DNA of 64,000 nucleotides from Candidatus Poribacteria bacterium (GTDB lineage: Bacteria > Poribacteria > WGA-4E > JAJDTR01). A program made the position numbers and the translations under genes. The DNA lies in NCBI GenBank assembly GCA_028820655.1, contig JAPPIK010000014.1, positions 335,079 to 399,078 on the forward strand, in the 5' to 3' direction. Position 1 is the stretch's first letter. Each line of letters opens with the position of its first letter. The notes beneath the pieces are model-generated. The model was not told the origin of the DNA and made no database searches. It was given only the letters and a program-made list of their open reading frames with translations. This document shows positions 7,398 through 37,023 of this stretch, one piece after another.

Positions 7398-8885
7398 TTA
7401 CACTCTCGGATCTTGCGTTTGAAGAAGGTCCAACTGACCTTCCGTCGGTTCTGCTCAGCAAAACCACGGTTCCGTAAGCCGCGGCGCTCTCTCCGAATCC
7501 TTGGGAAAAGCGCGATGATCCGGAGGGGCGCCGCCTTGCAAACTTGACGCAAGCTTCCAAATAGAATAGAACGTCTCGCACGGATCCACGCCCGCCTGGG
7601 AATCTCTTTCCGCCAATCCACTGACGGTTTTGTGGAGTTCATCCATTCGCGGATCGGGATGTGACCAATGGTAGCTAAATGCACTCTGATCCAGCGAGCC
7701 CAAATGAGGTTTCATGGCATCTCGATTCAATAAATGCGATCCCGGTGGAATCAACAATCGAACGGCGTACTGCACCGGATCAACGTGATCAATCAGGTCG
7801 TGTTTCGATACAAATTCGAACACATCCAAGTAATCGCTCAACGATGTCCACGGCGTGAATGCAACCCAAGTGGGACGCAGCGAAATGTCTGCCGTGCGGA
7901 CAATTTCGATTGCCTCCTCGACATCACGTCTTGTATGGTTTTTCTCCAAAATCTGAAGCACGTGATCGCTCAGTGATTCCACCGCTGAAACCGTGAACAA
8001 GCATCCCAATTGGTGGAACTCGGGGAACATCTCGCGATGTTTGATGATGTGTTCGACCTTCGTTGTAAAATCAAAAGTCAGGGACGGAAACTCGGCGTGC
8101 ATTGCTCGGACGAGACGCAGCGAATGGGTGGGACCGTTCAAAAAATCCGGATCGCCGAACGTGATGTGTGTCGCTCCCGCTTGAACTTGCCGGCGAACGT
8201 CTTCCAACACAATCTCCTGCGGGACGACAAAGAAACGCCCATCGTAAACCGGCGGGATGGGGCAATGCGTGCAGGAGTGTTTGCACCCGCGGCTGCCTTC
8301 GACGTATCCGACCAATCGGTGTTCACCGCGATGCGATAGGCGCGCATACGAATTCAGCGCCGGCAGCGGCGCACGCGAGGGCGGCGAGAAAGACAAGCGG
8401 TTTAGAAAAGGTCGGGCTTTCACTCCATGGCCAATCACACCATCAGGCAGTCTTAATTCCTTTGTCGAAATGGAAGACCCGTGCTTGTCTGCCATCTCAA
8501 CAAGCGCAAGTAGGGGCGATTCATACTCACCCGCGATACAGAAGTCCGCACCGTTGTCTAGCAGGTAATCTGCGTTGAGACCTGCGTAGAGACCGTAGAG
8601 GCAGATTATTGCATCCGGATTAAGCTTGCGAATACGCTTAACGACGTAAACACCCAGACGAAGGGCGGTGTGCATTGGGACGGCGATTCCGATAAAGCGG
8701 GCACGGGAGACCTTTTCCGCGTCTGAGGGTTCGACGGAAACGTCGATTGCGGCGGCTGGGAATCCCGCGCGTTCCAAGAAACCGAGAGGCATGGCAACCC
8801 CCATCGGTTGATGTCCCAACTCATAACAGGAAATCAACAGTACCGCACCGGGGGAACGTAAGTTATTTGCCTGCGTCTGCTTCAT
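7398..8885 (-). CDS. B12-binding-like/radical SAM selenoprotein with Cys-Sec-Ala-Glu-Pro tail
   Basis: The first ~150 residues resemble a cobalamin-binding Rossmann domain and lack an obvious DxHxxG. The radical SAM core follows, with C-x3-C-x2-C in GCKHSCTHCP, G-D-P-D-F-L-N-G and a V-S-A-V-E-S strand. The frame meets TGA at 7457-7455 after EPWFC, but reading that TGA as selenocysteine continues the protein as A-E-P-T-E-G-Q-L-D-L-L-Q-T-Q-D-P-R-V to TAA at 7400-7398. That gives 495 residues with Sec at 477. The tail C-U-A-E-P matches a family I recall as CUAEP/CCAEP-tail radical SAM (seleno)protein. A hairpin with an AGUUG loop starts 12 bases after the TGA. ATG 8885 is used (a TTG precedes it). 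The substrate is unknown. Plain calling would end the protein at 7455. Confidence 0.86.
7424..7457 (-). promoter_or_regulatory. Predicted bacterial SECIS element with UGA codon (radical SAM gene)
   Basis: UGA is at 7457-7455. The perfect 7-bp stem GAAGGTC (7442-7436) / GACCTTC (7430-7424) encloses the loop AGTTG. The loop begins 19 bases after the UGA and has G at its second position, both within the known bacterial SECIS rules (loop 16-37 bases downstream, G in the first two loop positions). Confidence 0.78.
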
Positions 8886-8993
8886 CAATGTAGTCTCTGT
8901 CTGTTATTTAAACGATCAGGAAATCTTCATTGTGGAATTTTTTTCTGCAGCATTGTCGGTGTAATTCCGCCACGTAGAAACGCCGTTCATTCT

Positions 8994-13514: not shown

Positions 13515-14378
13515 CTATGTTAGATTTCGGACGGAACGATCGGCAATAGCCTCGTCACCGAGATGCGCTTGAATCCAGTCTCGGAGGGGAACATCTGCGT
13601 CCGTGGGTGTGGTGAGTGCCAAGTTGCTCGTAGTGGCGCCGAGCAATTGACGGCGGATTGGATCTGAGCGTTCCATCAGGTGGGCGACAGACATGTCGAC
13701 CGTGGGGTGGAACCAGCGATAGCTGTAGCCAATGGATACCGCTTTCTGTGTGATACCCGAGAGGTTCTGCCCATGTGCTCGCCAGAGTCGCCGATCGAAT
13801 ATAACAGCGGTTCCCGCCGGAATGCGAAGTTCAGTGGCTCCGTCAAGGTTTGAATCGCTAGCGAATGGAGCCTGAATCGAGCCCTCGAGATGACTTTCCG
13901 GCAAAACATAGGGATTGCCGCATCCGGAAGCGGTGAGGTCAGTCAAGAAGAATCCCACCGTCACAGAAATGCGTGGTGGCGGGGTTGCTTCCAGAAGTTC
14001 ACGATTCAAACGACCGCCCTCTTGGCTCCACCGTAGCCGTCGTTTCTCTCGACTCGATACTTTCGCTTCAGGAGGCGTGACTCTGAGTTCGGTGTGGCAC
14101 ACGTGGATGTTCCACTTTAGGATTTTCCACACTTTGGGGAATGTTCGCGGCCAATCAATGAGTTCGAGAAAGATGTCGTGCGCAGCCAGAATATCCGAGA
14201 TCGTCAATTCATTCTTTGAACATGCCTCCCCCCGCTTGACAATTATCCTATCCATTGCCGCGTTGAGTTCATCTATCATGTCCGTGGGCAGAGCACCGGG
14301 AATTGGAAGAAATCCATTCTTCTCAAACGCCTGATGATCATTATCCGTCAAACAGTGCTCTAGGCATGCGGCATCCAT
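13515..14378 (-). CDS. Phytanoyl-CoA dioxygenase (PhyH) family protein, iron motif degenerate
   Basis: The 287-residue protein is clearly homologous to its neighbour at 14471-15277: same start pattern (C-L-x-H-C-L/M-T-D), F-F-L-T/S-D-L-T, G-T-A-V-I-F-D-R-R-L-W and S-I/L-G-Y-S-Y-R-W-F. PhyH enzymes are Fe(II)/2-oxoglutarate dioxygenases that need an H-x-D...H triad. The neighbour has L-H-W-H-Q-D. Here the same site reads L-R-W-S-Q-E, so both proximal iron ligands are changed (His to Ser, Asp to Glu). It may be a catalytically inactive partner or a diverging duplicate. Confidence 0.85.
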   Translation of the reverse strand: MDAACLEHCLTDNDHQAFEKNGFLPIPGALPTDMIDELNAAMDRIIVKRGEACSKNELTISDILAAHDIFLELIDWPRTFPKVWKILKWNIHVCHTELRVTPPEAKVSSREKRRLRWSQEGGRLNRELLEATPPPRISVTVGFFLTDLTASGCGNPYVLPESHLEGSIQAPFASDSNLDGATELRIPAGTAVIFDRRLWRAHGQNLSGITQKAVSIGYSYRWFHPTVDMSVAHLMERSDPIRRQLLGATTSNLALTTPTDADVPLRDWIQAHLGDEAIADRSVRNLT

Positions 14379-14470
14379 CTTTTTGCCTTTACTTCAAAGC
14401 AATCGTTAACCGCTCGCGATGCGGTTCTGAATCGTATCGTTCCCTAGTAGCGGAGTCAACGATGCCTCTC

Positions 14471-15277
14471 CTACATGTTGGCGACGGCTTCTTCGCCCAA
14501 GTGTTCCCGCAGCCAGCCCCGAAGGGGCACATCCTCGTCTGTGGGGGACGTCAATCCGGCAGCCCCGGTGTGTGCGCCAAGCAGCTGCCTGCGAATTGGA
14601 TCAACTTTGTCCATATAGTGAGACACCGTCATAGCGTCCCTTACACGAAACCAGCGATAACTGTAACCGAGGAAAATAGCCTTTCGCGGCATCTCAGAAC
14701 AGTTTCGGCCCCCGTCATGCCAAAGACGACGATCAAAAATAACCGCTGTACCAGGTGCAGCCAGAACTTCAAGTGCATTTTTTGGATTTGAAATTCCGTC
14801 AGGCGGATATTCGAGTTCATCTTTCAGATGGCTTCCGGGGATGACGTTAAAATTGCCGCGCCCGCCTTCCGTAAGATCGGACAGAAAAAAGCCGACCTTT
14901 ACGGAGACTCGCGGTGCGGGAATGGACTCCATATCCAAAGTCACGCGGCCGCTGTCCTGATGCCAGTGAAGCCGTTTCTTTTCGTTCCGTTCTTCCGGCG
15001 GAAGCGGCGGTTTGGGGGTGTAGTGCGTGTGATACAGATGGATATTCCAACTCAGAATGTCCCATACTTTCGGCAGGATGGTTGGCAAATCAATCAATTC
15101 CAAGAACAGTTCGTGTTTCCCGACACAATTCACGCCGGGTTCTATCGAGTCTACCATCTCGTTAAAGTCCGAAGTCAATTCGGGTGACAGGGCATCTTGC
15201 ACGACGAGGAACCCGTCGCGCTCGAAAACTCTGCGTTCATCATCCGTCATGCAATGGTTTAGGCATGAGATGTCCAT
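14471..15277 (-). CDS. Phytanoyl-CoA dioxygenase (PhyH) family protein
   Basis: This is a 268-residue Fe(II)/2-oxoglutarate-dependent dioxygenase. The proximal iron motif H-Q-D is in RLHWHQDSGRV, and the probable distal region is D-R-R-L-W-H-D-G-G-R-N with a following R-K-A for 2-oxoglutarate. The family hydroxylates varied small molecules, so the substrate cannot be named. It is upstream of and paralogous to the gene at 13515-14378, 92 bp apart on the same strand, and probably arose by tandem duplication. PhyH expansion is typical of Poribacteria-like genomes. Confidence 0.88.
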   Translation of the reverse strand: MDISCLNHCMTDDERRVFERDGFLVVQDALSPELTSDFNEMVDSIEPGVNCVGKHELFLELIDLPTILPKVWDILSWNIHLYHTHYTPKPPLPPEERNEKKRLHWHQDSGRVTLDMESIPAPRVSVKVGFFLSDLTEGGRGNFNVIPGSHLKDELEYPPDGISNPKNALEVLAAPGTAVIFDRRLWHDGGRNCSEMPRKAIFLGYSYRWFRVRDAMTVSHYMDKVDPIRRQLLGAHTGAAGLTSPTDEDVPLRGWLREHLGEEAVANM

Positions 15278-15656
15278 CTGTTTTCTTCTCCTCCCGTCAC
15301 ACGATTCAGGAAACGGTAGAAAGGCTCGGGATTTTGAAATTCTCCATTGACATTTCGTGGGTCAGACGCGGAGGCTCTGTCACCACGGCACACTTCCAAC
15401 CGTGAATGGGCCACGTTCAAATATAGCATGATGACGGCAGCATGTCAATATAACGATGATGATCACGCTACGAATCCCGCGTGGTTCTCCAATCTTCTGT
15501 AGTAACATTCTTGCAGATGGTTGGCGGGCGGTTGGGCTCGTGGATTGACACTCGCGCTCGTCGAGTTTTCGGGACGCGCGTATTTTTTGGCAATACCGAT
15601 TACCTTAAACGAATCTTGAAGCAGAGCGCGGTTGCGTCACACTCGCTTGGAACGGA
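15278..15656. other. Intergenic region, no gene seen
   Basis: About 380 bp between the PhyH gene and the end of the 1174-residue surface protein gene. No convincing coding frame or hairpin with a T-run was found. Confidence 0.4.
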
Positions 15657-26812: not shown

Positions 26813-26906
26813 ATAATCCCTTCACTGCCACACTAACCGCGTTGATTCTTACCACCGGCTCAGATGTATGAGTTGGTGCCCTGAAAGTCTAAAAGGAGGT
26901 TACATC

Positions 26907-27953
26907 TTGAAAATGAGCTACTTGCGCTATTTAAGCCTAGTATCTATTGTCTTATTTTTGACATCTTCCCAGTCGGTGTTTGCCGATGGTGGGAAAATTA
27001 GTGCCGTTTATTTCGGCGATTATTATTACATCGCCGCACATCACAACGATGAACTAAAATCGCGCAACGGATTCTGGACGCGCCGCGTATACCTGACGTA
27101 TGATCGAAAGTTGAATGAGACGTTTTCGTCGCGAGTGCGTTTCGAAGTGAATAGTCCGGACGGCTTGGCCGGTACCGGCGGCAAAAACATTCCGTATGTG
27201 AAGGATGCCTATTTGAAAATATCACCGAAAGGATCATCGCACAGCATTTATCTCGGACGGTCTATTACGCCAACGTTTTCGGTGGTGCCTAAATTATGGG
27301 GTTATCGAGCGGTTGAAAAGTCCATGCTTCTCATGCAAAAGTATGGCAGTACGCGGGACTTGGGGGTTGCGGTGAAGGGCAAAGTGCCCGGAGTCGACAT
27401 GCTGAGTTATCACGCCATGGTTGGCAACGGCGCAGGCACGAGTGCGGAAACCGACAAATACAAAAGAGGGTATTTGTCAGCAACACTTAAACCCTCTCAA
27501 GCCGTTGTTGTTCAGGGGTATGTTGACTTTGAGGCACGGGAGCCTGGCATGAATCGTATGACCCTAATGGGATTTCTGGGATATCAAATGGACAACTATC
27601 GGGCGGGAGTGCAGTTCGGTAACCAGATCCGAGGCCAGGGAGAAGGTGTGGACGATGTGTCGATTCAAGGGGTGTCGGTCTTTGGGGCAGCCGCTGTCAA
27701 GCCCGATAAGATCTGGGTGTTCGGACGCGTCGACAAGATGTTGAGTGTAAACCCGGGCGCGCCAAAAATCGCGTATACGCCGATGAGCGCCGACGCAAAG
27801 TCGAATACGATCATTGCGGGACTGGACTACCGGCCGGTGAAGAACGTGCACATCATACCGAATGTGTTGATGTCCTTCTACGATTCACCCGAAGTGGGCG
27901 AGAAACCGGGATCGGATTTGATGGCGCGGGTGACGCTCTACTATAAGTTTTGA
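26907..27953 (+). CDS. Porin-like outer-membrane beta-barrel protein
   Basis: The 348-residue protein has a signal peptide (YLRYLSLVSIVLFLTSSQSVFA) and then beta-strand-rich sequence (Y-F-G-D-Y-Y-Y-I, F-W-T-R-R-V-Y-L-T-Y-D). It ends R-V-T-L-Y-Y-K-F, with the terminal Phe preceded by aromatic residues that BamA recognises. The start is TTG 26907 with AGGAGG 7 bases upstream; ATG 26913 is the alternative. It precedes the oxyanion-type transporter cluster, so it could be the outer-membrane entry route for that system. This is inference from position only. Confidence 0.8.
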   Translation: MKMSYLRYLSLVSIVLFLTSSQSVFADGGKISAVYFGDYYYIAAHHNDELKSRNGFWTRRVYLTYDRKLNETFSSRVRFEVNSPDGLAGTGGKNIPYVKDAYLKISPKGSSHSIYLGRSITPTFSVVPKLWGYRAVEKSMLLMQKYGSTRDLGVAVKGKVPGVDMLSYHAMVGNGAGTSAETDKYKRGYLSATLKPSQAVVVQGYVDFEAREPGMNRMTLMGFLGYQMDNYRAGVQFGNQIRGQGEGVDDVSIQGVSVFGAAAVKPDKIWVFGRVDKMLSVNPGAPKIAYTPMSADAKSNTIIAGLDYRPVKNVHIIPNVLMSFYDSPEVGEKPGSDLMARVTLYYKF

Positions 27954-28300: not shown

Positions 28301-29179
28301 ATGAAATATGTGTCGAAAAAAGCATCGAAACTGATCGTCATTGTGGCAATTACCGTACTCTGTGTGTCCACCTCGTGGAGTAATGAACTGGTTTTCACGG
28401 CTATACCGGACCAGGACACATCACGGCTAGAGCAGCGTTTCGGAAAAATAGCGGATTACTTGTCGAAAGAGTTGGACATCGAGGTAAGATATATACCGGT
28501 TAAATCGTACAGCGCATCGGTGCAGGCGTTCAAGAACAACGAAGTCCAACTCGCATGGTTTGGGGGGCTATCGGGAGTTCAAGCGCGGCTAGGAGTGCCG
28601 GGGTCGGTCGCGATTGCGCAAGGTGTGGAGGATCCGTATTTTATCTCCTATTTCATTGCGAATACGAGCACTGGTTTGTCGTTTTCCGAGAAGTTCCCGA
28701 AAGACATAGCTGGCAAGACTTTTACGTTCGGATCGAAGGGATCGACTTCGGGGCGCCTTATGCCCGAATTTTTTATCCGTGAGGCCTTTGAAAAAATCCC
28801 GGATGATATCTTCAAGCGGGTCGGTTTTAGCGGCGATCATTCCAAGACATTGGCGTTGGTGCAGTCGGGTAGTTATGAAGTTGGCGCTATGAATTACAAA
28901 GTGTGGCGCAAAGAGGTCGAAGCCGGTAAGGTAGACCCAACTAAGGTGCAGGTCATCTGGCGTACGCCGCCGTACCCGGACTACAACTGGACAATTCGCG
29001 GAGATGTAGACAAGACTTTCGGGGACGGGTTTACCAAGAAGATACAGCAGGCTATCACCGACATTGATGATCCGGCGATTCTTGAGGCCTTTCCCAGAGC
29101 CAGTTTTATTCCTGCCAATAATTCTCTGTATCAACCTATCTTGGACACCGCCATTGAGGTTGGAATTATCAGGAAATAA
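28301..29179 (+). CDS. Putative selenate/phosphonate-type ABC transporter substrate-binding protein
   Basis: The 292-residue periplasmic protein has a signal peptide (residues 1-27, ...CVSTSWS). The mature start is V-F-T-A-I-P-D-Q-D-T-S-R-L-E-Q-R-F-G-K, followed by Y-I-P-V-K-S-Y and V-Q-L-A-W-F-G-G-L-S-G-V-Q-A-R, then I-A-Q-G. These words are the signature of the PhnD-like family annotated as putative selenate ABC transporter binding protein, which co-occurs with selenium metabolism genes. Ordinary PhnD proteins lack the A-W-F-G-G-L-S-G pattern. The downstream ATPase and PhnE-like permease complete a transporter. The two predicted selenoproteins in this window strengthen the selenium reading, but transport specificity is not proven. 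Confidence 0.84.
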   Translation: MKYVSKKASKLIVIVAITVLCVSTSWSNELVFTAIPDQDTSRLEQRFGKIADYLSKELDIEVRYIPVKSYSASVQAFKNNEVQLAWFGGLSGVQARLGVPGSVAIAQGVEDPYFISYFIANTSTGLSFSEKFPKDIAGKTFTFGSKGSTSGRLMPEFFIREAFEKIPDDIFKRVGFSGDHSKTLALVQSGSYEVGAMNYKVWRKEVEAGKVDPTKVQVIWRTPPYPDYNWTIRGDVDKTFGDGFTKKIQQAITDIDDPAILEAFPRASFIPANNSLYQPILDTAIEVGIIRK

Positions 29180-29519
29180 AAACACATCGACGAACGACCA
29201 TTCACATTCGATTAATCCGCGACGGTAGGTCCGCTTCGCTATTCTCTCAAGGAGCACTCTCGGAAAGCTAGTCATGGAGCGGAGGATTAATTGTTCCTGC
29301 TGAAGGATTGTAATCGCAAACTAACAGTTTGCGGTACGAGAGCGTTACGCGCTGATTGAATTATTCCGACAGGGAAATTGGCGTGCTATCAAGGGGCATT
29401 CTTTGGCGGCCTGCATCTAGGCAAAAAGAATTGCTCTTTGCTGATAGACTCATACCCATAGGAATAATGGCGTGCTTTAACACCTAGCGTCGCACCCTTC
29501 AAACCGTATTTTACATGCC
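29180..29519. other. Intergenic region, no gene seen
   Basis: About 340 bp between the binding protein and ATPase genes. It holds a small hairpin (CGCAAACT/AGTTTGCG near 29316-29334) without a T-run. No coding frame is recognised. Confidence 0.4.
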
Positions 29520-30218
29520 ATGGAGCCATCCGATAAATCCGCACTATTCGTTCTGGAGGGTGAGAGTGTTGCCTACGAGAATAACGTCGCCTTGAAAAGT
29601 GTCTCCCTGCGAATCCACCGTGGGGAAAAAGTTGCTTTGATTGGTCCAAGCGGCGCAGGGAAAACTACACTGCTCCGCACATTGTACGAACGAGTCGAGG
29701 GTAAATCATCGTTTGTCCATCAACATTACGCGCTCGTGCCGCAACTCTCCGCCTTCCACAACGTCTTCATAGGACGCCTCGACCAGCATTCCACAGTGTT
29801 TAACCTCCGAAATCTAATCAAGCCTCAGGAAAAGATCCTGGATGAGATTGTCCCGATTCTGTCCAAACTAGGGATGGAGGAAAAAATCTTTGAACGCGTA
29901 GGCGAATTATCCGGCGGTCAGCAGCAAAGGGTAGCCGTCGCACGCGCGATGTACCGCGGCGAGGATATTCTGTTGGCAGATGAACCCATCTCCTCAGTGG
30001 ATCCGCACCAGGCAACAACGGTGATGGAGTTGATTATGGGGAGTGCGGACACCATTGTGTTGTCCTTGCACGCTGTCGACTTTGCTCTGAAATTTGCCAA
30101 GAGGATTATCGGACTACGCGATGGGGAGGTTCAGTTTGATTTGCCGACTGAAATGGTTTCCCCGACTATGCTTAGCGAGTTGTACGAGAGTGAGTCTGTC
30201 GGGATTAACCTGTTGTAG
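29520..30218 (+). CDS. ABC transporter ATP-binding protein (PhnC-like)
   Basis: The 232-residue ATPase has Walker A GPSGAGKT (residues 42-49), a Q-loop region V-P-Q-L-S-A-F-H-N-V-F-I-G-R typical of PhnC-type ATPases, the signature LSGGQQQR, Walker B I-L-L-A-D-E-P and the switch His in L-S-L-H-A-V-D. PhnC-like proteins energise PhnE-type permeases, so its natural partners here are the binding protein at 28301 and the permease at 32802. It may also serve the ModB permease, since no ModC is present nearby. Confidence 0.9.
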   Translation: MEPSDKSALFVLEGESVAYENNVALKSVSLRIHRGEKVALIGPSGAGKTTLLRTLYERVEGKSSFVHQHYALVPQLSAFHNVFIGRLDQHSTVFNLRNLIKPQEKILDEIVPILSKLGMEEKIFERVGELSGGQQQRVAVARAMYRGEDILLADEPISSVDPHQATTVMELIMGSADTIVLSLHAVDFALKFAKRIIGLRDGEVQFDLPTEMVSPTMLSELYESESVGINLL

Positions 30219-30298
30219 TGTGAAGCAAGAAGAGACATGGGTTGACAGAGATTGTGCGGGCACAAATTGCAAAGTCTGTAAGCAACGAGAAGCAAATG

Positions 30299-30322
30299 GA
30301 TGGCGGACAGTGGCCATCCTAC
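30299..30322. repeat. Small hairpin repeat ending in CCTAC
   Basis: GATGGC and GCCATC pair around GGACAGTG, followed by CTAC. It is the third member of the family at 3556-3575 and 13461-13482. Confidence 0.5.
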
Positions 30323-30416
30323 AATAGATACAGGATTGTGGGTGAAGCAAACCTAATTTTCAAGAAAAAACTCGGTTTCACCGCATGAAAGCGGGCCCTA
30401 TTTAATTGTGTGACAA

Positions 30417-31223
30417 ATGGTTGTCCGGTCTATCAAAACCTGTGTTTTTATTCTTATTTTTATCTGCACGGTAGCGGCGTGCACGAATCCAAGACAAGAA
30501 CGAGCGCAGACGGAGAGTGAACTGGACCGTGTCGCTGAATTAACGATTTTTGCCGCGGCAAGTTTGACGGACGCCATTACGGATATCTCCAAATCGTTTG
30601 AATCCGGGCATAATGTTAAGGTTTACGCGAATTTCGCCGGTTCGCAGACGTTGCAGGTTCAGATTGAACGAGGGGCTCCGGCAGACCTGTTCATCTCCGC
30701 CAGCCCGAAACAGATGGATGCGTTAGAGGAGAAGAGCGCCATCCATGAATCCAGTCGCCGAAATGTGCTGAGAAATAGCTTGGTGCTGGTTACTCCGGTT
30801 CGGGGCTCGCACCAAATCGAGAAACTGGAAGAACTCGCGAACTCGCGTATCCGGAGAATTGCCATCGGTGAACCGAATTCCGTTCCGGCGGGAATATATG
30901 GTGCAGAAGCCTTTAAACGCCTGGGAATTTGGTCGGCGGTTGAATCGAAGCTAATCCCGGTAGCAGATGTTCGAGCCGTGCTCGCGTATACCGAGGCAGG
31001 GGAGACCGATTTCGGTATAGTTTACAAGACTGATGCTTCGTTGAGCGAGAAGGTCAGAATTGCCTATGAATTTCCCACCTCAAGCCACAGCCCGATTGTA
31101 TATCCAGCCGCGGTTATTCGGGGTACCGTGCGTGAAGATACCGCACGCTCATTCCTTCGATACCTTGAGACGTCGGAAGTCAAAAGCGTCTTCAAGAAGT
31201 ACGGATTTTCTGTCGTCAAATGA
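30417..31223 (+). CDS. modA: Molybdate ABC transporter substrate-binding lipoprotein
   Basis: The 268-residue protein has a lipoprotein signal with lipobox T-V-A-A-C (Cys about residue 21). The mature part shows ModA words: T-I-F-A-A-A-S-L-T-D-A-I, F-A-G-S-Q-T-L-Q-V-Q-I-E-R-G-A-P-A-D-L-F-I-S-A, I-A-I-G-E-P-N-S-V-P-A-G and T-D-F-G-I-V-Y-K-T-D-A. ModA binds molybdate or tungstate in the periplasm. Its stop overlaps the modB start (ATGA). It sits inside the selenate-type transporter cluster, and the window also has mobA and moeA. Confidence 0.92.
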   Translation: MVVRSIKTCVFILIFICTVAACTNPRQERAQTESELDRVAELTIFAAASLTDAITDISKSFESGHNVKVYANFAGSQTLQVQIERGAPADLFISASPKQMDALEEKSAIHESSRRNVLRNSLVLVTPVRGSHQIEKLEELANSRIRRIAIGEPNSVPAGIYGAEAFKRLGIWSAVESKLIPVADVRAVLAYTEAGETDFGIVYKTDASLSEKVRIAYEFPTSSHSPIVYPAAVIRGTVREDTARSFLRYLETSEVKSVFKKYGFSVVK

Positions 31224-31891
31224 ACCTAACCGATACAGAGGTCGCGGCGCTCGTTATATCCATTAAAACCGCTTTACTTAGTTTGCTGTGCATTCTACCG
31301 GTGGGTGTTGGAATTGGGTGGCTGCTTGCGAAGGTGTCGTTTCGCGGAAAGTCGTTACTGAATACCCTTGTGATGCTGCCTCTGGTACTTCCCCCCGTCG
31401 TGAGCGGTTATCTGCTGCTGATGCTGTTTAGCAAACAGGGACCTATCGGCGCCATCCTCTTTAGTCTGTTCGGACTTGAGATTGTCTTTACATGGTTAGC
31501 CGTTGTTTTAGCGATTTCCATTATCTCGTTTCCTCTGATGGTTCGCAGCATCGTGATCGCTATGGAGGGAGTCAACCCTCGACTGGAGGGGGCGGCACGG
31601 ACCCTCGGAGCCGGACGATTCAGAGTGTTCTTCTCGGTTACGCTGCCGTTGTCCTACCACGGGATTATCGGAGGCGCGATTCTGGCATTCGCTCGAAGCC
31701 TAGGGGAGTTTGGCGCCACCATAATGATAGCCGGGAACATACCCGGAAAGACTCAGACTCTTCCCTTAGCTATTTTCAATTATGTGCAAACGGGTCAACA
31801 ATTCAGCGCGTATCGGCTAGTGATGATATCGACGGTCATCGCATTTGGCGCGTTATGGTTTGCGGAAAGGCGATTCCTTAAATCGGACTAA
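31220..31891 (+). CDS. modB: Molybdate ABC transporter permease
   Basis: The 223-residue inner-membrane permease has five hydrophobic segments and the ABC-contact loop L-E-G-A-A-R-T-L-G-A-G-R-F-R-V-F-F-S-V-T-L-P-L. It has typical ModB words (L-P-L-V-L-P-P-V-V-S-G-Y-L-L-L, S-L-G-E-F-G-A-T-I-M-I-A-G-N-I-P-G-K-T-Q-T). It is translationally coupled to modA. No modC follows: the next gene is a SUMF1-like lipoprotein. The ATPase must come from elsewhere or from the PhnC-like gene at 29520. Confidence 0.92.
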   Translation: MNLTDTEVAALVISIKTALLSLLCILPVGVGIGWLLAKVSFRGKSLLNTLVMLPLVLPPVVSGYLLLMLFSKQGPIGAILFSLFGLEIVFTWLAVVLAISIISFPLMVRSIVIAMEGVNPRLEGAARTLGAGRFRVFFSVTLPLSYHGIIGGAILAFARSLGEFGATIMIAGNIPGKTQTLPLAIFNYVQTGQQFSAYRLVMISTVIAFGALWFAERRFLKSD

Positions 31892-31918
31892 TCGATTAAC
31901 TTGATGCAGAGGTGAAGG

Positions 31919-32746
31919 ATGCGCATAGTCGTGGAGGTCTTGGTTTTGCAAATTGCTGCTATGACGCTACACGGATGTAGCCCGAAAATGGCCAACCCGG
32001 AAATTACGCTGCCGGAGCGTATTGTGAATGAGAAAGACGGCGCCGAAATGGTCTTAATTCCAGCCGGAGAGTTTGAGATGGGGAGCCCGAAGAACGATGA
32101 CAAGCACTGGGAAAGACCCATTCACACGGTGTATTTGGATGACTTCTATATGGATGTTCACCCTGTCACGAATGCGCAGTATCGGTTGTTTGTCCAAGAG
32201 ACGGGTTACCCGACGCCGAAAACAACGCCCGCGTTCAGCCATCCGCAACAACCCGTTGTGTGGGTGACCTGGTGGGATGCCATGGAATATGCGCGATGGG
32301 CAGGCAAGACACTTCCATCGGAGGCACAATGGGAAAAGGCGGCACGAGGCGGACTCAACGGCAATCCTTACCCTTGGGGCGACGAGGAACCGAACCCGTC
32401 GCTGGCGAGTTACGATTCCATCTACCGGATTACGCTGCCGGTGCGCAGTTTTCCACCGAACGGCTACGGGTTGTACGACATGGCCGGAACGGTGTGGGAA
32501 CTGTGCATGGATGAGTGGCAGGAAGATTATTATTCGCGAAGTCCGCACGAGAACCCGGTGGCTGGCGGGGTGGTGTCAGCAACCGCCGACCTTCGATCGA
32601 TTAAAAGCCTTCGTGTCGCCCGCGGCGGTTGCTGGCAATTTAGGCCCGATCATGGACTGGAGGTGTTCCATCGTTCCTATAGCCCGGTCGACTTCATAGA
32701 GGATTTCCAAGGTTTTCGTTGCGTGAAACCGGTATTGCCTAGATGA
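31919..32746 (+). CDS. SUMF1/FGE-domain lipoprotein
   Basis: The 275-residue protein starts with a lipoprotein signal (L-H-G-C). The formylglycine-generating-enzyme-like domain runs from about residue 38: M-V-L-I-P-A-G-E-F-E-M-G-S, V-H-P-V-T-N-A-Q-Y, V-V-W-V-T-W-W-D-A-M-E-Y-A-R-W-A-G, L-P-S-E-A-Q-W-E-K-A-A-R-G-G, Y-G-L-Y-D-M-A-G-T-V-W-E-L and a final G-F-R-C-V. The paired active-site cysteines of true FGE are not evident (R-G-G-C-W-Q-F instead), so it probably has another, possibly binding, role. It lies between modB and the large permease in the same direction. Confidence 0.82.
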   Translation: MRIVVEVLVLQIAAMTLHGCSPKMANPEITLPERIVNEKDGAEMVLIPAGEFEMGSPKNDDKHWERPIHTVYLDDFYMDVHPVTNAQYRLFVQETGYPTPKTTPAFSHPQQPVVWVTWWDAMEYARWAGKTLPSEAQWEKAARGGLNGNPYPWGDEEPNPSLASYDSIYRITLPVRSFPPNGYGLYDMAGTVWELCMDEWQEDYYSRSPHENPVAGGVVSATADLRSIKSLRVARGGCWQFRPDHGLEVFHRSYSPVDFIEDFQGFRCVKPVLPR

Positions 32747-32801
32747 AAGACACCTCCGATGGCACCGGCTGAACGTGCATGCCTAGTCTGCGGGAAGCTT
32801 A

Positions 32802-34292
32802 ATGCTGAAAACTAGCCTCATCTTTGCCGCCATTGCTTTGAGCGCACTCCTGTTGGCGGACCTTGAAATTTCGACGCTCGATCCGTGGCTTGAATTTGGC
32901 AGGATGGCTAAAGGAGCGGTGACTCCCGACTTTCTCGCTGTCTGGGGATTTTGGCATGCCCTCTTGAACACGGTGGTATTTGCACTTTGCGGAATTTGCC
33001 TCGCCGTTGTGTTTGGCGTTGTGCTTGCGTTCTTTTTTCGCTTTACACCCATTCGGCTGTTCTGCGCTTTTGTCCGCGCCATTCATGAAATCTTCTGGGG
33101 ATTTATTTTCCTGTCCATAGTTGGGCTGAACTCGGTTTGCGGTGTGCTTGCCATCGCGATACCGTACGCCGGCATTTTTGCAAAAGTATATGCGGAGATT
33201 GTTCAGGAGTCAGACCACCGGCCGCGAGAGGGTGTGCCTACTCGGTGTGGTGGATTGAGTCGCTTTGTTTACGGCATTCTTCCCGTCATTTACGCCGATG
33301 CGAAGCACTATACCGGGTACCGTTTCGAGTGTGCCTTGCGATCAAGCGCTATTCTTGGATTCATTGGCCTCCCTACGCTCGGATTTCACCTGGAAACCGC
33401 GTTTCGTGAAGGGCTGTATTCGGAAGCGGCGGCTCTGCTTTATGTGTTCTATTTGCTAATCGCGTCGCTGAGGTATTGGGTCAAAGCCCGTTTTATACCG
33501 GTCTATATCGCGGCGGCGTTCGTTCTATTGTCGTGGGAGATTACGCTGTCCTGGGCGAACGTCGCTCGATTCTTTACTTATGAGATTCTGCCTTGGCCCA
33601 TGCGTCGTGAAGGGGTCTCGACAGGCAGCTTCGACGTATCGTATGCTTGGATGCCGATATGGCAGTGGATTCGAGATATCATCGCGGACGAGGGTGGGAG
33701 AGGCATCTGGAATACGGTGATACTGACCCAGATTGTGCTGGTAGGCACCGGAGTATTCACACTGTTAATTTTTCCGTTTGCCAGTCGGCATTTCACGGGG
33801 AAAATCCCTAGTAGAATCTCGCACTATCTACTCATTATTCTACGCACAACGCCGGAGTATATTCTCGCCTTCGTGTTTGTACAGCTATGGGGACCGTCGA
33901 TGCTTCCGGCGGTGTGGGCGATTCTCCTGCATAACGGGGCGATATTGGCCTTTCTGACGAGCAATAATGCAGACCTCGTCCGCCTCCGTTTAGATGCACC
34001 GCACAAGCGTACCGACCGTTATTTCTACGAGATCCTTCCGCGCGTGTATGGACAATTCCTTGCATTCCTCTTTTATCGATGGGAGGTGATGATGCGTGAG
34101 TCCGCCATGCTTGGCATACTTGGCGTTTATACGCTGGGATTTTACATCGACAGTGCGATTGAAGCCGTGCATATGGACAAAGTGGTGTTGCTCATCTTCA
34201 TCACCGCCTTGCTCAATATGGGGATTGACAGCGTGTCGCAATTGGTGCGCCGCGGTCTAAAGATTTCTACGAAACTGGTGACATCGGGATAA
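32802..34292 (+). CDS. PhnE-like ABC permease, double-length (two permease domains)
   Basis: The 496-residue inner-membrane protein contains two BPD-type permease halves. The first, about residues 45-230, has the cytoplasmic loop R-P-R-E-G...F-V-Y-G-I-L-P followed by Y-R-F-E-C-A-L-R-S-S-A-I-L-G-F-I-G. The second, about 300-485, has L-R-L-D-A-P...Y-E-I-L-P and Y-R-W-E-V-M-M-R-E-S-A-M-L-G-I-L-G. A single polypeptide with both halves suits a phosphonate/selenate-type importer with one permease gene. The ATPase at 29520 and the binding protein at 28301 are its likely partners although three genes intervene. Confidence 0.85.
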   Translation: MLKTSLIFAAIALSALLLADLEISTLDPWLEFGRMAKGAVTPDFLAVWGFWHALLNTVVFALCGICLAVVFGVVLAFFFRFTPIRLFCAFVRAIHEIFWGFIFLSIVGLNSVCGVLAIAIPYAGIFAKVYAEIVQESDHRPREGVPTRCGGLSRFVYGILPVIYADAKHYTGYRFECALRSSAILGFIGLPTLGFHLETAFREGLYSEAAALLYVFYLLIASLRYWVKARFIPVYIAAAFVLLSWEITLSWANVARFFTYEILPWPMRREGVSTGSFDVSYAWMPIWQWIRDIIADEGGRGIWNTVILTQIVLVGTGVFTLLIFPFASRHFTGKIPSRISHYLLIILRTTPEYILAFVFVQLWGPSMLPAVWAILLHNGAILAFLTSNNADLVRLRLDAPHKRTDRYFYEILPRVYGQFLAFLFYRWEVMMRESAMLGILGVYTLGFYIDSAIEAVHMDKVVLLIFITALLNMGIDSVSQLVRRGLKISTKLVTSG

Positions 34293-35973: not shown

Positions 35974-36468
35974 ATGCCGCGAAAAAACAAAGAACTCAAG
36001 ATTGGAGATACCGCACCCCCGTTTACGTTGCGCTCGGTTCACCAGGAGCATGTAGACCTGGAATCGTACGTCGGTAAAAAGCATGTCATTCTGGTGTTCT
36101 TCCGGGGAACCTGGTGACCCAATAGCCGCCGCCAGTTGGCGAGTCTACAGGAACACTTGGATGAATTTAGGTCCCGTCAAGCCGTAGTCATCGGCGTGGT
36201 TGGTCAGTGGCCCCGGGAAGTACGAAGATACGCAGATCGGCATAAAATCGGGTTTCCGCTGTTAACGGACAGAGACCGCAATGTCATCAAGCGTTACGGT
36301 GTGCACCATCGACTTGGAATTGATGCGTACAACATCGCGCGTCCCGCCACCTTCGTGATGGACAAGAACGGGGTTATTCGGTTCATGTATGTCGGATCAC
36401 ATCAATTCGACCTCGCCAATCATCAGAGCCTAATTGATTGTCTGGAATCCCTGCAACAGCTTTCCTGA
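35974..36468 (+). CDS. Peroxiredoxin-like (AhpC/TSA fold) selenoprotein
   Basis: Read from ATG 35974 with the in-frame TGA at 36115-36117 as selenocysteine, the protein has 164 residues and a complete thioredoxin-fold peroxiredoxin. It has L-K-I-G-D-T-A-P-P-F-T-L near the start, V-I-L-V-F-F-R-G-T-W-U-P-N-S-R-R-Q-L-A-S-L-Q around the active site (Sec48), F-P-L-L-T-D-R-D-R-N-V-I-K-R-Y-G-V and A-R-P-A-T-F-V-M-D-K-N-G-V-I-R-F. Family members have Cys exactly at the TGA position (F-x-R-G-x-W-C-P-x-C). The second Cys is Ser here (U-P-N-S). Gene callers would report only a 110-residue C-terminal piece from 36136. It likely reduces peroxides with a thiol partner. It follows hemW by 7 bp. Confidence 0.87.
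36115..36141 (+). promoter_or_regulatory. Predicted bacterial SECIS element with UGA codon (peroxiredoxin gene)
   Basis: UGA 36115-36117 is followed by CGCC (36130-36133) and GGCG (36138-36141) enclosing AGTT. The loop starts 17 bases after the UGA with G at its second position. The stem is only 4 bp but all G-C. The loop matches that of the radical SAM SECIS. Confidence 0.65.
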
Positions 36469-36764: not shown

Positions 36765-36910
36765 TGTTTCTGTGCGAGTACGGAATCTGTGGTGAACGGG
36801 TGAAAATCCGTGACAGCGGCAAAACCCGAGAACCTTGCAAATGCGAAACAGATTTGAGGACATGCCTAGCCTACGGTTGTCATTCGGAAGGGAAAAGACA
36901 CTGAAAGTAG
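36765..36910 (+). ncRNA. FMN riboswitch (RFN element), divergent
   Basis: The conserved core blocks of the RFN element are present in order: a hairpin ACGG-GTGAAAAT-CCGT (36796-36811), the A-G-C-G-G-C-A-A-A-A-C-C-C-G-x-G-A block, C-A-G-A-T-T-T-G, A-G-C-C-x-A-C-G-G-T-T, and T-C-G-G-A-A-G-G-G-A-A-A-A-G-A at the end. It aligns with the E. coli ribB element although several consensus bases differ. It precedes ribD and is followed by a terminator, so FMN would end transcription. A cobalamin riboswitch was considered because of the GGTGAAAATCC word, but the 3' part and the genes favour FMN. Confidence 0.76.
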
Positions 36911-36916
36911 CGTATC

Positions 36917-36946
36917 GCCCAAAGTTAGATTTTGGGCTTTTTTTAT
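36917..36946 (+). terminator. Riboswitch-controlled Rho-independent terminator
   Basis: GCCCAAA (36917-36923) and TTTGGGC (36931-36937) form a perfect 7-bp stem followed by a run of seven T. It lies between the FMN riboswitch and ribD. Confidence 0.88.
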
Positions 36947-37023
36947 TTCCGATGAATTTCAGCAACCTTTCCGAATTATAACAGAGATTTCAAGGGAGTG
37001 AGCGCATTTCGAAGGAGTTATCC

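Follow-up and report, generated by a model that had tools for sequence, protein, structure and literature searches.

A TIGR04553-type ABC transporter in a poribacterial genome as a probable importer of a selenium oxyanion

The stretch of DNA considered here (the window, 64,000 nucleotides) is part of contig C15 (bases 335079-399078) of a Candidatus Poribacteria bacterium whose draft genome measures 5.88 Mb, and the subject is a run of six genes on one strand at positions 28301-34292. In order, these encode a substrate-binding protein, an ATP-binding cassette (ABC) ATPase, ModA, ModB, a lipoprotein-like protein with an FGE-sulfatase domain and a double-length PhnE-like permease, the successive gaps from binding protein to permease being 340, 198, -4, 27 and 55 bases (Table 1). 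A porin-like gene lies 5' of the run, and hemW together with an AhpC/TSA gene carrying an in-frame TGA lies 3' of it. The binding protein and ATPase (28301-30218) and the permease (32802-34292) very likely constitute an ABC importer that takes up a selenium oxyanion by means of a periplasmic binding protein, a reading to which we assign a probability of roughly 0.8. An initial annotation of the window had placed the ATPase and permease after the binding protein; both are present, but the ModA, ModB and FGE-domain genes that lie between them had been omitted.

Table 1. Coordinates of the transporter genes and associated features in the window
Feature	Coordinates	Strand	Basis
Porin-like outer-membrane protein, possible entry route	26868..27953	+	homologues in relatives
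TIGR04553 substrate-binding protein, putative selenium-oxyanion binder, 292 aa	28301..29179	+	hidden Markov model, tree, pocket
PhnC-like ABC ATPase	29520..30218	+	ABC_phnC 185.4 bits, motifs
ModA molybdate-type binding protein, interleaved	30417..31223	+	TIGR01256 202 bits, cut-off 62.5
ModB molybdate-type permease, 4 bp overlap with modA	31220..31891	+	TIGR02141 228.4 bits, cut-off 182.6
Lipoprotein-like FGE-sulfatase-domain protein	31919..32746	+	PF03781 199 bits
Double-length PhnE-like permease (two fused PhnE repeats)	32802..34292	+	TIGR01097 in two stretches, 181.5 bits
AhpC/TSA-like predicted selenoprotein, UxxS motif (GTWUPNS)	35974..36468	+	PF00578 105 bits, TGA read as Sec
CUAEP-tail radical SAM predicted selenoprotein	7398..8888	-	NF040546 679 bits, cut-off 500

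The binding protein matches TIGR04553 (ABC_peri_selen) at 379 bits (1e-113, cut-off 250), with residues 30-290 aligned to model positions 2-265/266, and it is the sole match to this family in the genome. The sequence words from which the initial annotation had made the same assignment (TAIPDQD, PVKSY and LAWFGGLSGVQAR) are all present, and the placement against PhnD and TIGR04553 that it had proposed as a check leads, by hidden Markov model and by tree alike, to TIGR04553 and away from PtxB. A chance or misread open reading frame is excluded by the model scores and by the orthologues. PhnD (TIGR03431) was rejected, the score of 131.7 bits lying below the cut-off of 261.1; likewise, the ATPase and the permease remain under the phosphonate-transporter equivalog cut-offs for PhnC (TIGR02315, 266.1) and PhnE (TIGR01097, 216.7). 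The nearest solved structures are those of picocyanobacterial PhnD1 (7S6G and 5LQ5), which also pass the TIGR04553 cut-off with 337 and 294.5 bits, whereas PtxB fails it at 159 bits. In a maximum-likelihood tree PtxB is split at 100/100 from PhnD1 and 41 TIGR04553 proteins, and the protein of the window falls among Poribacteria (98/99). PtxB (5O2J, 5LV1, 5JVB) belongs to the same superfamily and has in common the pocket Tyr, the Ser-Thr-Ser, the His and the capping Tyr, but it carries Gln in place of D227 and Tyr in place of W86; an identity with PtxB was rejected on the separate clade and on residue 227.

The ATPase has readable Walker A (GPSGAGKTT), signature (LSGGQQQR) and Walker B (ILLADEP) motifs, and its orthologues adjoin genes for the binding protein and PhnE in relatives. 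A homologue of the permease occurs at 73 of 80 related loci; these loci, drawn from several phyla, are nearest relatives rather than a random sample, and many of their contigs end early. The locus thus resembles other systems of the TIGR04553 'putative selenate ABC transporter substrate-binding protein' family with PhnC/PhnE-like partners in a binding protein far above the cut-off, in its three ABC parts and double-length permease, and in the association of the family with selenium genes; it departs from them in the insertion of modA-modB and the FGE-domain lipoprotein gene, and in having its selenium genes on other contigs. The inserted FGE-domain reading frame was considered as SenA (NF041186) and rejected, since its score is 78 bits where 420 are required and it consists of the FGE domain alone, lacking the DinB-like N-terminal domain. 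The porin-like gene has no match in Pfam or NCBIfam, yet it is a genuine gene that recurs with the transporter in relatives: an orthologue (87%) lies 5' of the binding-protein gene in a congener, and 41% homologues lie directly 5' of that gene in the poribacterial genome G025 and directly 3' of PhnE in a Gemmatimonadota contig. Two f2 genomes have a different, DcaP-like porin 5' of the binding-protein gene.

The connection to selenium rests on what surrounds, and what accompanies, this transporter elsewhere. Among 84 poribacterial genomes TIGR04553 is found in 12, all within three families of one order, and SenB is present in 11 of these 12 as opposed to 4 of the 72 others; SenA follows the transporter too. 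In two of them (G024 and G025) the gene order is SBP-ATPase-PhnE-SenA-SelD-SenB, where SBP is the substrate-binding protein, so that the selenoneine (sen) genes known from clusters of SenA, SenB and SenC/SelD stand directly 3' of the transporter; no porin was detected at the G024 locus. Unbiased clustering of the neighbouring reading frames at the 80 loci placed SenB and an NADH dehydrogenase-SelD fusion first after the ABC genes (21 loci each), followed by SelD (12) and SenA-type proteins (10) and, lower, by SelB, EgtD-like proteins and SelA. A tblastn search within 8 kb found SelD at 37 loci, SenB at 23, SenA at 13, SelB at 6, SelA at 5 and EgtD at 5, with at least one selenium gene at 40 of the 80. 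In all, sel or sen genes neighbor the transporter in G024, G025 and 39 other contigs.

Several particular arrangements were seen among these relatives. In four loci from Gemmatimonadota and Proteobacteria (L102, L156, L167, L169), egtD, senA, senB and selD share one contig with a TIGR04553 transporter; these appear to be complete loci for selenoneine that include an uptake system of their own. The NADH dehydrogenase-SelD fusion (about 757 aa) is common beside the transporter in Proteobacteria (L114, L115, L136, L153 and 17 other loci); a similar fusion was described in Prochlorococcus and Synechococcus in 2005 (PMC1273633). In five poribacterial genomes (G014, G015, G016, G024 and G025; loci L062, 15632-16648 on the plus strand, L066, L067, L075 and L076) the senB gene itself is interrupted by an in-frame TGA, which falls exactly on a Cys conserved in most SenB (FEV[C/U]V[IL]GHLRPVKDP). 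The TGA-bearing SenB looks like a selenoprotein form; two papers on the SenB structure mention neither a selenoprotein SenB nor a transporter.

Co-occurrence across genomes, the other check that the initial annotation had proposed, points in the same direction. In 390 genomes from the order of Marinobacter nauticus (G121), TIGR04553 is encoded by 116 and SelD by 232, and all 116 carriers fall within the 232; none of the 158 genomes without SelD carries TIGR04553 (Fisher 6.6e-34, uncorrected for phylogeny). The marker of the carbon-phosphorus lyase, PhnJ, is present in only 13 of the 116, a weak association (p = 0.054), and among carriers from other groups SelD was found in 47 of 50. The comparison favors selenium over phosphonates.

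The genome of the window is itself equipped for selenium use. Its SelD has an in-frame TGA (context CAG(U)ASKL), SelA, SelB and tRNA-Sec are found together on contig C51, and SenA (518 bits, cut-off 420) and SenB (389 bits, cut-off 300) together on contig C35; the cell can therefore make selenocysteine, and probably selenoneine. Both selenoproteins predicted in the window by the initial annotation are credible, the radical SAM protein by its NF040546 score and the AhpC/TSA-like protein by an in-frame TGA that is kept in another species of the genus. Between the two species, changes at first, second and third codon positions of the latter gene number 4/1/10 before the TGA and 7/4/25 after it, and this third-position bias on both sides indicates a protein-like substitution pattern. 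The bases 3' of the PrxU TGA, when folded, are no more stable than shuffled sequence, so that energy alone gives a selenocysteine insertion sequence no support. The larger proposal of a region for selenium acquisition and use holds for the transporter and the one adjoining selenoprotein gene but does not extend to the sel and sen genes, and the radical SAM gene 20 kb away, which had been counted as a sign of such a region, is not part of the operon and is no evidence for one.

The nature of the ligand can be approached through PhnD1, which is 42-48% identical to the binding protein of the window. In PhnD1 of MITS9220 the residues that hold the ligand are Y44, S124-T125-S126, H156, D203 and Y204 (PMC10284923). 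The counterparts here are Y70, S148-T149-S150, H180, D227 and Y228, and each is present in 72 or all of the 73 homologues; position 227 is Asp in 72 of the 73 and in PhnD1, and Gln in all three PtxB compared. PhnD1 proteins (7S6G/7ZCK, 5LQ5/5LQ8) were studied as phosphite and phosphate binders, with affinities of 0.05-4.3 uM for phosphite and 7-182 uM for phosphate, a difference of some 10- to 3000-fold in favor of phosphite. Hypophosphite does not bind to PhnD1 (PMC10284923). This order of preference implies that a trigonal anion with three oxygens is apparently required. Selenite is trigonal like phosphite, selenate resembles phosphate, and near neutral pH selenite is partly protonated; a protonated selenite would suit D227 as an acceptor. 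Because the pocket of the characterized homologues takes trigonal phosphite better than tetrahedral phosphate, selenite appears more likely than selenate as the ligand, and the selenate assignment of the initial annotation is corrected to that extent.

On this basis the transporter is probably the selenite importer of the cell. Selenite (HSeO3-/SeO3 2-) would probably pass the outer membrane by way of the porin whose gene lies just 5' of the transporter and would then be captured by the TIGR04553 protein between its two lobes, through the pocket residues listed above, and handed to the double PhnE-like permease, powered by the PhnC-like ATPase. Within the cell, selenium would be reduced and converted by SelD to selenophosphate, which in turn may supply selenocysteine through SelA, SelB and tRNA-Sec and, in this clade, also selenoneine through SenB and SenA.

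Several observations weigh against selenium import. The only characterized TIGR04553 members are the picocyanobacterial PhnD1 proteins, binders of phosphite and phosphate in vitro, which their authors judged to be phosphate transporters (PMC10284923), and the main texts of two PhnD1 studies make no mention of selenium. In the genome of the window, selD, selAB, tRNA-Sec and senAB all lie on contigs other than that of the transporter, none of them in its operon. Within Poribacteria SelD is present in 75 of 84 genomes and hence uninformative, and the association with sen genes runs along clade lines. Furthermore, SelD was not found in the congener G013 (92% complete) or in 3 of the 50 carriers from other groups, probably, although not provably, owing to incomplete assemblies. 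An importer of phosphite or phosphate like PhnD1CE as now interpreted, with only an indirect link to selenium genes, is one alternative to selenium import. In its favor, the two nearest structures are PhnD1 members of the same family, with a submicromolar to micromolar affinity for phosphite, and every residue in direct contact with phosphate is identical in the protein of the window; it fits poorly with a transporter accompanied by SelD in every carrier of the Marinobacter order and by PhnJ in few, and found in operons with selD, senA, senB, selA and selB. Moreover, the Synechococcus tested cannot use phosphite and the PhnD1 authors call its binding fortuitous (PMC10284923), and the almost invariant Asp at position 227 sets the family, PhnD1 included, apart from the three PtxB compared. 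A phosphite or phosphate importer is very unlikely.

Import of another selenium species, whether selenate or an organic selenium oxyanion, is by contrast a variant compatible with selenium import as such. The family already bears the name of a putative selenate transporter, and linkage to selenium genes leaves the oxidation state of the substrate unfixed, although the weaker hold of PhnD1 on tetrahedral phosphate and its failure to bind hypophosphite speak for a trigonal ligand with three oxygens; this variant is rather unlikely.

The modA-modB pair requires separate comment. It is found between the ATPase and PhnE genes only in the genus of the window (both sampled species), and a general role of modAB in this transporter system was accordingly rejected. 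No modC is present at the locus in either species, the rest of this genome not having been searched for it, whereas in f2 relatives modA-modB lies at a different place in the genome and has an ABC ATPase gene behind it. Such an arrangement, together with MoeA- and MobA-like reading frames recognized by sequence at 3.6-5.7 kb in the window, might suggest that the PhnC-like ATPase powers two importers, PhnE/TIGR04553 for selenium and ModB/ModA for molybdate, in a combined selenium-molybdenum uptake operon. ModC, however, usually carries its own regulatory domain, and sharing of an ATPase cannot be predicted from sequence alone; dual service by the ATPase is unlikely.

The prediction that TIGR04553 proteins transport selenate is pre-existing, as the family name attests. 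The present analysis adds an operon that joins the transporter to selenoneine genes, the finding that all carriers in the order examined have SelD, and the inclusion of PhnD1 in the same family; some of these points may already have appeared in print, the literature searched having included no preprints and few subscription papers. According to a 2026 review (PMC13188914), a specific high-affinity system for selenium transport is yet to be identified in prokaryotes, and TIGR04553, a family almost confined to selenium users, is a concrete candidate with near-perfect dependence on SelD. The implications reach the picocyanobacteria, whose gene context is taken here from papers, as their genomes were absent among the 80 loci kept. 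PhnD1 is present in all 97 picocyanobacterial genomes examined, though the strains tested cannot use phosphite (PMC10284923), and the marine picocyanobacteria have the NADH dehydrogenase-SelD fusion and the selenouridine gene ybbB (PMC1273633). Since the same type of fusion is common beside proteobacterial TIGR04553 transporters, a role in selenium uptake is a candidate answer to the paradox of a protein that binds a phosphite its host cannot use. More broadly, we would give even chances to the proposal that the missing high-affinity importers by which prokaryotes take up selenite in particular are the TIGR04553 transporters, core picocyanobacterial PhnD1C1E1 among them, and that these supply SelD for the making of selenocysteine, selenouridine and selenoneine, with one ATPase in this poribacterial genus that may also serve ModAB.

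Two further observations concern other parts of the window. The stretch before ribD at 36780-36950 (GGTGAACGGGTGAAAATCCGTGACAGCGGCAAAACCC..., with a terminator-like TTTTTT at its end) appears riboswitch-like by eye; a window-wide Rfam search found no riboswitch at the gathering threshold, and this stretch gave chance matches only and no Rfam family. At 13515-15508 on the minus strand lie two adjacent, related reading frames of about 300 aa with the look of phytanoyl-CoA dioxygenases, an apparent tandem duplication.

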